DNA of 64,000 bases. Origin: Dyella lipolytica. GTDB taxonomy: Bacteria > Pseudomonadota > Gammaproteobacteria > Xanthomonadales > Rhodanobacteraceae. Below the pieces are notes generated by a model. That model did no database searches, had not been told where the DNA came from, and saw only the letters and a list, made by a program, of their open reading frames with translations. Position numbers and translations under genes: made by a program. Of the stretch, positions 30,941 through 33,615 are shown piece after piece (the stretch's first letter is position 1; each line of letters starts with the position of its first letter). The stretch spans positions 1,548,328-1,612,327 of the forward strand of contig NZ_BSNQ01000003.1 of NCBI RefSeq assembly GCF_030160075.1. The letters are read 5' to 3'.

Positions 30941-32017
30941 TCAGGCCGCCGCTTGCGCAGCTTGCCGTTGGCGACGCTGGCGCACCGCTTCGGCGAGCTG
31001 CTCCAGCACCTGTACCGAGGTATCCCAGCCGATGCAGCCGTCAGTAATGCTCTGCCCGTAGATGAGATCACGGCCCGGCACCAGATCCTGTCGCCCAGCC
31101 ACCAGGTGGCTCTCCACCATCACGCCGTGAATGCGCTTTTCCCCGGCTTTTAGCTGTGTGGCGATATCGGCGATCACATGCGGTTGATTGTCGGGCTGCT
31201 TGCCGCTGTTGGCGTGACTGGCGTCGATCATCAAACGTTCGGTCAAGCCGGCCTTGGCCAAGGCACTGCAAGCGTCTGCGACGTGGGCTGCGTCGTAGTT
31301 AGGCAATTTGCCGCCGCGCAGAATCACGTGACAATCCTCATTGCCGCGGGTGCTGGCAATCGCAGTGTGCCCGCGCTTGGTTACCGCCATGAAATGGTGC
31401 GGCTGGGCTGCGGCCAGCACCGCGTCCACCGCGATCTTGATATTGCCATCGGTGCCGTTCTTGAATCCGACCGGGCAGGACAAACCGGAAGCGAGTTCGC
31501 GATGCGATTGGCTTTCGGTGGTACGCGCACCGATCGCTCCCCATGCCACCAGGTCGGCGATGTATTGCGGCGTGATCAGATCAAGGAATTCGCAACCGGC
31601 AGGCAGGCCAAGCGCGTTGATATCGCACAGCAAGCGACGCGCGAGATGCAGTCCTTTGTCGATGTGGTAACTCTCGTCGAGATCCGGATCGTTGATCAAC
31701 CCCTTCCAGCCCACCGTGGTGCGCGGCTTTTCAAAATACACGCGCATGACGATCTCCAGCGCATCGACATGCCGTTCGCGCTCGACCGCAAGGCGCTGGG
31801 CATAGTCGAGCGCGGCGGTCGGATCATGGATCGAACACGGGCCGATCACCACCGCGAGACGATCGTCCTGGCCGTGCAGAATGCGGTGCAAGGCGCGACG
31901 TGACATGGCGACGGTGGCGATGGCCTCCGCGCTGGGCTCGCAATCCCGCATCACGTCGGCGGGGGTGGCGAGTTCCTTGATCTCGCGAATGCGCAGATCG
32001 TCGGTAATGCTGGTCAT
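30941..32017 (-). CDS. aroG: 3-deoxy-7-phosphoheptulonate (DAHP) synthase, class I
   Basis: First enzyme of the shikimate pathway: phosphoenolpyruvate + erythrose-4-phosphate to DAHP. 358 residues. VIGPCSIHDPTAALDYA, RVYFEKPRTTVGWKGLINDP, GARTTESQSHRELASG, CPVGFKNGTDGN and DASHANSGKQP are intact active-site blocks. Type I-alpha enzymes are AroF/AroG/AroH; which feedback specificity applies is not decidable by eye, and the symbol is used generically. GGAG precedes the ATG. Expression is probably governed by the attenuator at 32056-32193. Confidence 0.93.
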   Translation of the reverse strand: MTSITDDLRIREIKELATPADVMRDCEPSAEAIATVAMSRRALHRILHGQDDRLAVVIGPCSIHDPTAALDYAQRLAVERERHVDALEIVMRVYFEKPRTTVGWKGLINDPDLDESYHIDKGLHLARRLLCDINALGLPAGCEFLDLITPQYIADLVAWGAIGARTTESQSHRELASGLSCPVGFKNGTDGNIKIAVDAVLAAAQPHHFMAVTKRGHTAIASTRGNEDCHVILRGGKLPNYDAAHVADACSALAKAGLTERLMIDASHANSGKQPDNQPHVIADIATQLKAGEKRIHGVMVESHLVAGRQDLVPGRDLIYGQSITDGCIGWDTSVQVLEQLAEAVRQRRQRQAAQAAA

Positions 32018-32055
32018 GGGGAGAACTCCTTTGGGTGTCGATACCCGGCGACCAA

Positions 32056-32087
32056 CAAAAAAGCCGCCAGGGTGGCTGGCGGCTTTT
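32056..32087 (-). terminator. Attenuator terminator before the DAHP synthase gene
   Basis: On the minus strand, GCCGCCAG/CTGGCGGC forms an 8-bp stem (32063-32083) with a 5-nt loop, followed by U6 (32062 down to 32057). It lies between the aromatic leader peptide and the synthase start, 39 nt before the ATG. An upstream GGCGGC in the leader can pair with the 5' arm GCCGCC, giving an antiterminator. Confidence 0.85.
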
Positions 32088-32112
32088 GAGGAAAGTGGGT
32101 GATCTTGCTTAG

Positions 32113-32193
32113 TTACGATCGCGCACCACGCTCCGCCGCCGGCTTCGGATAGCCATAAAACCAGAAGTAATAGCGGTGGGAGGCGAGGATCAT
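32113..32193 (-). CDS. Aromatic leader peptide of the DAHP synthase attenuator
   Basis: A 26-codon reading frame from ATG 32193 to TAA 32113. Its centre reads RYYFWFYGY: four Tyr, two Phe and one Trp within nine residues, a composition very unlikely by chance. The stop codon falls 30 nt before the terminator hairpin. This is the geometry of ribosome-mediated attenuation: charged aromatic tRNAs let the ribosome finish and the terminator form; starvation stalls it at the Tyr/Phe/Trp codons and frees the antiterminator. The ribosome site before the ATG is weak. Confidence 0.85.
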   Translation of the reverse strand: MILASHRYYFWFYGYPKPAAERGARS

Positions 32194-32201
32194 GACGACA
32201 A

Positions 32202-32229
32202 GTGATACCACATCACAGTCTCGATGCAA
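32202..32229 (-). promoter_or_regulatory. Possible promoter of the leader-DAHP synthase transcript
   Basis: TTGCAT (32229-32224) and TATCAC (32207-32202) on the minus strand with a 16-bp spacer. Transcription would start almost at the leader ATG. The -10 is poor, so this is tentative. Confidence 0.3.
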
Positions 32230-32293
32230 ACTGCTGCGTCCGTTCCTTCGATGCGTTAACGTCGCGCCGGCCATCAGACTTCCGGAGCTTTCC

Positions 32294-32722: not shown

Positions 32723-32829
32723 ACCCGTTTTGGCAGGAGATTGTTATGCAATCTCCTGCCAATTGAGCCATGATGACCGGGCATTGCCGTCGTACGTCCA
32801 CCACAGCAACCATGCTGGAGGATTGCCCG

Positions 32830-33615
32830 ATGAAACGAATGCTTTGGTCCATCGTGACCGCCTTGATGATGATGGTTCCCACCATGGCGTTTGCCGCCGA
32901 TGGTTACACCATCGCCAACGTCAATATGCGTGCGGGTCCCGACGCCGAATATCCACTTATCCTCACCCTGGCAACAGGCACACCGGTATCCATCCAGGGT
33001 TGCACTACGGGATGGGAATGGTGCGATGTCGTCGCCGTCGGCAACCGCGGTTGGGTAGCTGGCACCTATCTTCAATACACCTACAACAACCAGCCGGTGG
33101 TGGTTGTCGACTATGGTGCCCAGATCGGCATTCCGATCGTCTCGTTCGTGATCGGCACCTACTGGGGCCGTTATTACGCGGGCCGGCCGTTCTATCGCGA
33201 TCGCGCCCGCTGGTACTCGCGGCCTATTCCGATCCGGCCGCCGTCACGGCCACGGCCGCGGCCGCCTATCCGGCCGCCGGGTGGCGGCCATAATCGACCC
33301 CAACCTCCGGGTGGCGGCAATCGCCCGCAACCGCCAGGTGGCAATCGGCCCCAACCGCCAGGTGGTGGTAATCGGCCGCAACCTCCGGGCGGAGGTAATC
33401 GACCGCAGCCTCCGGGTGGTGGCAACCGCCCACAGCCGCCAGGCGGAGGCAATCGACCGCAACCACCCGGTGGCGGTAACCGCCCGCAACCGCCAGGTGG
33501 CGGCAATCGACCTCAGCCGCCCGGCGGTAATCGGCCCGCTCAGAACACTCGGCCGGCACCGCGCCCGAATCCTCAGCAGGGGGATAAAGCCAACAACGGC
33601 AATAACGGGAACTGA
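32830..33615 (+). CDS. Exported SH3b-domain protein with Pro/Gly/Asn-rich repeats
   Basis: 261 residues. The signal peptide ends near AFAAD. Residues ~25-80 form a bacterial SH3 domain (IANVNMRAGPDAEYPLILTL ... GWVAGTYLQY). A hydrophobic stretch (VDYGAQIGIPIVSFVIGTYWG) follows, and the rest is Arg/Pro-rich, with about nine copies of a PPGGGNRPQ-type unit. It probably binds peptidoglycan or extends through it. ATG at 32830 after GGAGG. Confidence 0.75.
   Translation: MKRMLWSIVTALMMMVPTMAFAADGYTIANVNMRAGPDAEYPLILTLATGTPVSIQGCTTGWEWCDVVAVGNRGWVAGTYLQYTYNNQPVVVVDYGAQIGIPIVSFVIGTYWGRYYAGRPFYRDRARWYSRPIPIRPPSRPRPRPPIRPPGGGHNRPQPPGGGNRPQPPGGNRPQPPGGGNRPQPPGGGNRPQPPGGGNRPQPPGGGNRPQPPGGGNRPQPPGGGNRPQPPGGNRPAQNTRPAPRPNPQQGDKANNGNNGN
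33293..33531 (+). repeat. In-frame 24/27-bp repeat array
   Basis: Tandem units encoding PPGGGNRPQ (27 bp) or a shorter PPGGNRPQ (24 bp) in the SH3b protein. Units vary at third positions, so the array is old rather than recently expanded. Lengths are multiples of three and would not shift frame. Confidence 0.8.

Follow-up and report, generated by a model that had tools for sequence, protein, structure and literature searches.

The Escherichia coli attenuators pheL/pheA and trpL combine a four-segment logic with control codons for the end product and a T-rich terminator, and attenuator leaders for several amino acids at once are known. The scheme proposed here shares these elements, but whereas pheL/pheA and trpL serve terminal-branch genes, the present leader would serve the entry enzyme, DAHP synthase. 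An aroR leader upstream of aroF in Corynebacterium glutamicum was reportedly described by Neshat et al. in 2014. In the accessible parts of two papers, this leader (Phe-Tyr-Phe), ahead of the aroF DAHP synthase gene, acts by ribosome-mediated attenuation (PMC11802643, PMC4046766). Like our locus it places an aromatic-codon leader peptide before a DAHP synthase gene; unlike it, and compared by that description only, aroR is actinobacterial and without Trp. The uORFC-13-1 motif before aroF, with 24 representatives in Acholeplasma and environmental sequences (PMC8632094), resembles our locus in that an ORF containing one or more Phe codons, and then an intrinsic terminator, lie ahead of the DAHP synthase gene; it differs in that its description, the only basis of comparison, mentions no tri-aromatic run in the portion available. 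Attenuation has been predicted at DAHP synthase operons of aroF type in Vibrio and Shewanella (PMC1173090, Table 7; PMC2659441, Table 3); these predictions concern the Tyr-type aroF(-tyrA) paralogue, and the accessible parts of both papers describe no such leader. In Sinorhizobium meliloti, according to the portions available, rnTrpL and peTrpL act in trans (PMC7298713, PMC10117765); rnTrpL is an attenuator RNA that is known to start at the leader ATG, as seems likely here, but it is specific for Trp and controls trpE(G). Attenuation of DAHP synthase and leaderless attenuators are known already, and our comparison of sequences supports a proteobacterial aroG leader family as the addition. A literature search returned no description of this leader in Proteobacteria; subscription journals lay mostly outside the search, so an earlier mention is possible.

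The window, by which we mean the whole 64,000-nt stretch of Dyella lipolytica DNA that was analysed, carries the leader and the gene on its minus strand (Table 1). The seven aromatic residues of codons 8–15 are four Tyr, two Phe and one Trp. The terminator loop between GCCGCCAG and CTGGCGGC is CCACC, the stem grows to 12 pairs with flanking A:U pairs, and 39 nt separate the T-run from the DAHP synthase ATG. An earlier reading of the letters alone (hereafter the sequence-only reading) had pointed to a 26-codon frame with RYYFWFYGY, to a hairpin with U6 upstream of a synthase ATG, and to a GGCGGC stretch near the leader end (codons 18–20) complementary to GCCGCC of the terminator 5′ arm. All of these are present as described, except that the GC stem begins 29 nt after the leader stop, not 30; the minus strand, segment 1 and the promoter had gone unmentioned.

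Table 1. Features of the leader region and of the gene behind it (positions in the window).
Feature	Position	Strand	Basis
Leader peptide ORF, 26 codons + TAA, peptide MILASHRYYFWFYGYPKPAAERGARS	32113..32193 (ATG 32193; TAA 32115-32113)	-	reading frame; kept in relatives
Control codons 8-15, Y Y F W F Y G Y	32149..32172	-	reading frame
Segment 1 (protector arm), C-ending codons directly before the aromatic cluster	32172..32185	-	full fold pairs it with segment 2; synonymous-site bias
Segment 2, GGCGGCGGAG..., partner of segment 1 or segment 3	32127..32140	-	fold and conservation
Segment 3, GCCGCCAG, terminator 5′ arm and antiterminator partner	32076..32083	-	
Segment 4, CTGGCGGC, terminator 3′ arm	32063..32070	-	
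T6 tract of the intrinsic terminator	32057..32062	-	
Putative -35 element TTTGCA, 17 nt 5′ of the -10	32225..32230	-	line-up of relatives
Putative extended -10 element (TGG)TATCAC, 8 nt 5′ of the leader ATG	32202..32207	-	line-up of relatives
Shine-Dalgarno AAAGGAG of the DAHP synthase gene	32026..32032	-	
Type-I DAHP synthase (aroG-type), regulated gene in the proposed scheme	30941..32017 (ATG 32017)	-	TIGR00034

The encoded protein matches TIGR00034 (aroFGH) with 526.5 bits (cut-off 173.2), reaches 553.3 bits with the AroG model NF006723, slightly below the cut-off of 568, and has Phe-regulated DAHP synthases as its best solved structures (E about 1e-144). The upstream neighbour, an FKBP-like isomerase (below its family cut-offs), is divergent from the DAHP synthase gene, so no other gene ends at the leader hairpin. 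Searching the genome with this protein gives a single match; the genome also encodes one type-II DAHP synthase, before which no such aromatic leader was seen. An open frame at 32770–33615 on the plus strand encodes a protein whose tail is a long NRPQPPGGG repeat.

Of 197 family genomes, 91 carry an orthologue at E 1e-60 or better. Their upstream regions were examined together with those of 80 named genome contigs, the best 80 of at least 590; some loci, L031 and L033 at least, come from genomes that belong to both sets. The scan looked for an ORF with at least four aromatics in nine codons, then a T-tailed hairpin, with at least 5 nt of leader complement to the hairpin 5′ arm. This full signature precedes the orthologue in 85 of the 91 family genomes and at 56 of the 80 named loci, and occurs in none of 1026 dinucleotide shuffles of the upstream regions (one of 1026 without the complementarity condition). 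Leader and terminator are visible by eye in five of the six family genomes that the scan missed, where the stem is irregular. The sequence-only reading had named lack of conservation of the aromatic codons or of both stems as one outcome that would overturn it; the comparison shows instead that the aromatic codons, segment 2 and the terminator are maintained across Alpha-, Beta- and Gammaproteobacteria. At one locus (L126, genome G136) the DAHP synthase gene is present and neither the scan nor inspection by eye found a leader. It is the sole such case among 13 sampled genomes from genus g18 with the gene and reflects loss, rearrangement or an assembly fault. A match to the window DAHP synthase at E 1e-60 or better is lacking in 106 of the 197 family genomes, which presumably use another type.

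Covariation was assessed in two alignments from which near-copies (> 90% identical) had been removed, A1 (Xanthomonadales set, 51 sequences) and A2 (beta set, 27 sequences). A1 includes one betaproteobacterial locus (L032) and leaves out the long row L157; eight alpha loci, L084 and L101 are in neither alignment. Against shuffles that ignore the relatedness of the sequences, the terminator has 21 cells changed on both sides in the Xanthomonadales and eight in the betas, numbers reached by 0 of 500 shuffles in each case. Pairing of segments 2 and 3 has six such cells in the beta set (1 of 500 shuffles as high), and in the Xanthomonadales set its covariation is not beyond shuffles (288 of 500 as high). 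There the GGCGG:CCGCC core hardly varies (four of its five pairs form in 51 of 51 sequences, the fifth in 49); the pairs flanking the core are frequently unformed. When pairs rather than cells changed on both sides are counted, none of the stems exceeds its shuffles (144/500 and 128/500 as high for the Xanthomonadales and beta terminators, 200/500 for 2:3 in the betas), and RNAalifold on A1 recovered the terminator plus a stem of two pairs, without the alternative stems. The sequence-only reading had looked to relatives for covarying stems; by the count of cells this holds for the terminator in both sets, and for the antiterminator in the betas but not in the Xanthomonadales.

The codon before the GCG of segment 2 encodes A, L, Q, T or P, yet its third base is G in 28 of 28 anchored leaders (those among 85 leaders that are distinct and match a strict pattern), and GGCGG is read in other phases at 4 of 134 loci. 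Since the amino acid varies while the third base stays G, and the phase sometimes differs, segment 2 is kept as RNA, and the leaders show selection on it at that level. GGCGG starts 8–21 nt after the aromatic cluster, most commonly 12 nt. Counted from the last aromatic codon, the spacing is 12 nt in 52 of 82 gamma-family leaders, in all six from other Xanthomonadales and in 9 of 11 alphas; in beta leaders it ranges from 9 to 21 nt. Judged by the size of its footprint, a ribosome stopped on the last aromatic codon would have its leading edge at about that 12-nt distance.

Segment 1, overlooked in the sequence-only reading, completes a trp-like scheme of 1:2, 2:3 and 3:4 pairings. From the ATG to the aromatic run, C is the third base of 84% of leader codons in the gammas (47% in genes), 89% in the alphas (53%) and 58% in the betas (46%). 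Compared with synonymous recodings of the leader, the native 1:2 pairing exceeds their mean at 48 of 49 gamma loci (a random draw of about half of the gammas) and, among loci with the GGCGG core, at 11 of 11 in the alphas and 22 of 31 in the betas. A fold that had placed segment 1 inside the aromatic codons was dropped, since 96% of the gamma partner probability of segment 2 precedes the cluster; the corresponding value in the betas is 53%, segment 1 being weaker there. Conservation, synonymous-site bias and folding together support both the 1:2 and the 2:3 pairing.

Folding of transcripts ending after segment 3 (140 of the 141 positive loci) gives a mean probability of 0.99 that segment 3 is captured when a ribosome occupies the middle aromatic codon, and of 0.51 without it. 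Without a ribosome, antitermination is favoured at 67 of the 140 loci, including the window's own (1.0). Because naked RNA at these loci already favours 2:3, the off state must come from translation and from folding in time order, and here the scheme is at its least certain. Placed at the stop codon (134 loci), a ribosome covers at least half of the segment-2 core in only 24; where segment 2 is mostly exposed behind the ribosome, it pairs upstream in 109 of 110.

Promoter-like elements adjoin the leader ATG in two of the three classes. Among the gammas, TTGC[AG] followed after 15–20 nt by TA[TC] occupies this place in 61 of 90 loci (26 of 4500 shuffles), and most of the 25 misses printed carry variants such as TTTGAT or CTTGTC; among the alphas, TGAC followed after 17–22 nt by TA[TC] is found in 11 of 13 (3 of 650 shuffles). 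The pair in the window is TTTGCA-N17-TATCAC, and the first T and A of the -10 are nearly invariant in A1. A generic sigma-70 consensus scan of the window region returned no promoter. Many betas have, by eye, TATAAA- or TATAGT-like elements farther upstream. A Shine-Dalgarno match of at least 4 nt was found at none of 135 leader starts (90 gamma, 13 alpha, 32 beta), compared with 82 of 90, 13 of 13 and 30 of 32 gene starts, respectively. Since the promoter elements abut the ATG and the leader has no Shine-Dalgarno match, the alpha and gamma leader transcripts are probably leaderless; in the window the start is predicted 0–3 nt before the leader ATG.

The element is, very probably, a ribosome-mediated transcription attenuator of the trp/pheA type that controls the type-I DAHP synthase. 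The sequence-only reading had already proposed attenuation, and the recurrence of leader, segment 2 and terminator in three proteobacterial classes supports it. What is expected of trp-type attenuators can be recognized in the locus: a leader ORF with a run of pathway-product codons (seven aromatics in eight codons), a predicted intrinsic terminator, a mutually exclusive 2:3 antiterminator whose core complement is kept, and a protector pairing, 1:2, that a ribosome would cover. We infer stalling, termination and the amino acids sensed as follows. Transcription would begin at the leader ATG or within about 3 nt of it, and a ribosome would load on the RNA 5′ end and trail the polymerase. With Phe-, Tyr- and Trp-tRNA charged, the ribosome would pass the aromatic codons and segment 2, melting or masking the latter, which would afterwards re-pair with segment 1, leave segment 3 for segment 4 and allow transcription to end at T6. 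A ribosome on the first aromatic codons would, by its footprint, sit on segment 1. When an aromatic tRNA is short, the ribosome would stall on codons 8–13 with segment 1 under its body and its front edge right before segment 2; segment 2 would then take nascent segment 3, the terminator could not form and the DAHP synthase gene would be transcribed.

A covariance model built from the Xanthomonadales set finds one full-length site in the own genome, with 153.8 bits; 15 other matches at E up to 1 (among the 150 of 1669 first-look candidates that were scored) cover the 3′ part of the model only and score at most 26.1 bits. In a sample of 398 genomes from the phylum, DAHP synthase follows 46 of the 47 full-length matches among those listed (own genome excluded) and begins 176–298 nt after the match start; the exception, L224, has no aromatic leader. 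That the element serves other genes too was considered and dropped, given the single full-length site in the own genome and the lack of an aromatic leader at L224; this judgement covers the listed full-length matches. The Rfam model Phe_leader (RF01859) scores 20.8 bits on the window, essentially from the terminator, and does not reach its gathering score of 55; neither the window region nor any of the 18 loci scanned gave an Rfam match at gathering level. A lax Rfam scan of the window region gave four matches below threshold: those to Phe_leader, asX2 and RNAI fall on the hairpin, the one to snoPyro_CD elsewhere.

All 84 gamma-family leaders and all six from other Xanthomonadales combine Phe, Tyr and Trp in the cluster, as do 13 of 14 alphas and 13 of 32 betas (taxonomic groups were assigned by hand, and L031, L033, L034 and L036, which belong to the window's family, were left out of the named loci). 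Trp codons are constant in the Xanthomonadales and absent from 18 of 32 beta leaders. Phe is encoded by TTT in 23 of 26 leader positions of the own genus, against 10 of 64 in genes, and in 149 of 189 leader positions of the named set, against 44 of 350, TTC being the prevailing Phe codon of the genes; selection for slow codons or for low structure is a possible cause. The idea, present in the sequence-only reading, that one switch senses all three aromatics agrees with the codons of the alphas and gammas but with those of only 13 of the 32 betas. A further reading, at somewhat less than even odds, is a leaderless three-input OR gate, in which any uncharged tRNA-Phe, tRNA-Tyr or tRNA-Trp would relieve termination so that the scarcest aromatic would set the entry enzyme; the gate would have moved with the DAHP synthase between Rhizobiales and Xanthomonadales, and the Trp input would have been lost from many beta forms or absent from them all along.

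The presence of a codon alone is not proof that starvation for that amino acid acts. The attenuator might in practice answer to one or two amino acids, for example Phe only, with the other aromatic codons neutral, a reading that we consider unlikely but not far-fetched. The accessible text on C. glutamicum AroR provides a precedent, in that its leader has Phe-Tyr-Phe, yet its effect comes from Phe limitation and not from Tyr availability (PMC11802643), and 19 of the 32 beta clusters are without at least one of the three amino acids. Against such a restriction, Trp is in the cluster of each of the 84 gamma-family leaders, with TGG at one fixed place in all 28 anchored leaders, and a stall on any of the aromatic codons 8–13 of the window leader is predicted to free segment 2 to the same extent (1.0; 0.72 for Tyr15).

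An additional role in trans, like that of rnTrpL and peTrpL, is improbable for the leader peptide or its released RNA (about 140 nt). The leaderless start inferred here has been measured for rnTrpL, as the available parts of PMC7298713 and PMC10117765 state, and YGYP.P.AE is well kept after the control codons in many Xanthomonadales leaders; this conserved tail is, however, partly dictated by segment 2, and in some relatives it differs or is read in another phase. It is scarcely credible that the hairpin is a mere small-RNA terminator and the aromatic frame a chance occurrence or a small protein gene. The 15 partial matches elsewhere in the genome do concern the terminator end of the model, but three proteobacterial classes share the succession of leader, segment 2, terminator and DAHP synthase, none of the 1026 shuffles reproduces the signature and the gene on the other side is divergent.

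The attenuator is widespread but far from universal. A separate sample of 140 genomes of the phylum contains TIGR00034 proteins in 73 (93 copies in total), and 16 of the 93 copies have an aromatic leader, 12 of them known from the earlier scan or model sets. The scan added L253, L299 and L308, the last two with an unrelated terminator; the leader at L250, whose terminator the scan missed, was found by the model and the leader frame. No leader was found by the scan at the 30 copies of family f39 or in families f5, f9, f11 and f12 (2, 5, 6 and 6 copies). At L299 (genome G334) and L308 (G266) a WFGYGFYFSQ run and the unrelated terminator (AAGCCCCGACTGG...) precede a second DAHP synthase paralogue, perhaps as an independently evolved attenuator. 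Tyr-rich upstream frames (MRPTYFSYYRYYRYTYFM; MTTYYRTDRYYRYDWRF...) precede other DAHP synthase paralogues at L283 (G203) and L302 (G219); the simple scan found no terminator at these two loci, and the frames are possibly Tyr attenuators.

On a quick protein tree of 132 DAHP synthases (midpoint-rooted, a subset of the loci, 43 open forks) the leader label is clustered, with 7 changes against 31.1 in shuffles (0 of 500 as low); labels were set by eye for L021, L053, L063, L081 and the model-match loci. Most enzymes of Rhizobiales and Xanthomonadales form one group of 48 (SH-aLRT 98), apart from those of Burkholderiales, and L101, a MAG labelled Lysobacterales, falls elsewhere. Rhizobiales and Xanthomonadales share the layout with the promoter at the ATG. 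Joint transfer of gene and switch between them would be the simplest reading of these sequences.

The enzymes also differ at the position aligned with Ser211 of the Phe-regulated enzyme, which we take to be a residue with a role in the feedback specificity of DAHP synthase. Across L001–L110 it is Ala in 48 of 66 enzymes behind leaders with Trp codons, and Ser in 18 of 19 behind leaders without Trp and in 21 of 25 for which no leader was found, a comparison that is confounded with lineage.

These results propose transcriptional control of the aromatic entry enzyme in large bacterial groups, among them Bradyrhizobium, Mesorhizobium, Burkholderiales and Xanthomonadales, and they supply an RNA family that no Rfam model matches in the loci scanned. 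If the three-input reading is true, it would show how one committed enzyme is adjusted to three end products, and comparing leaders that have Trp codons with those that lack them would offer a natural test of what control codons mean.
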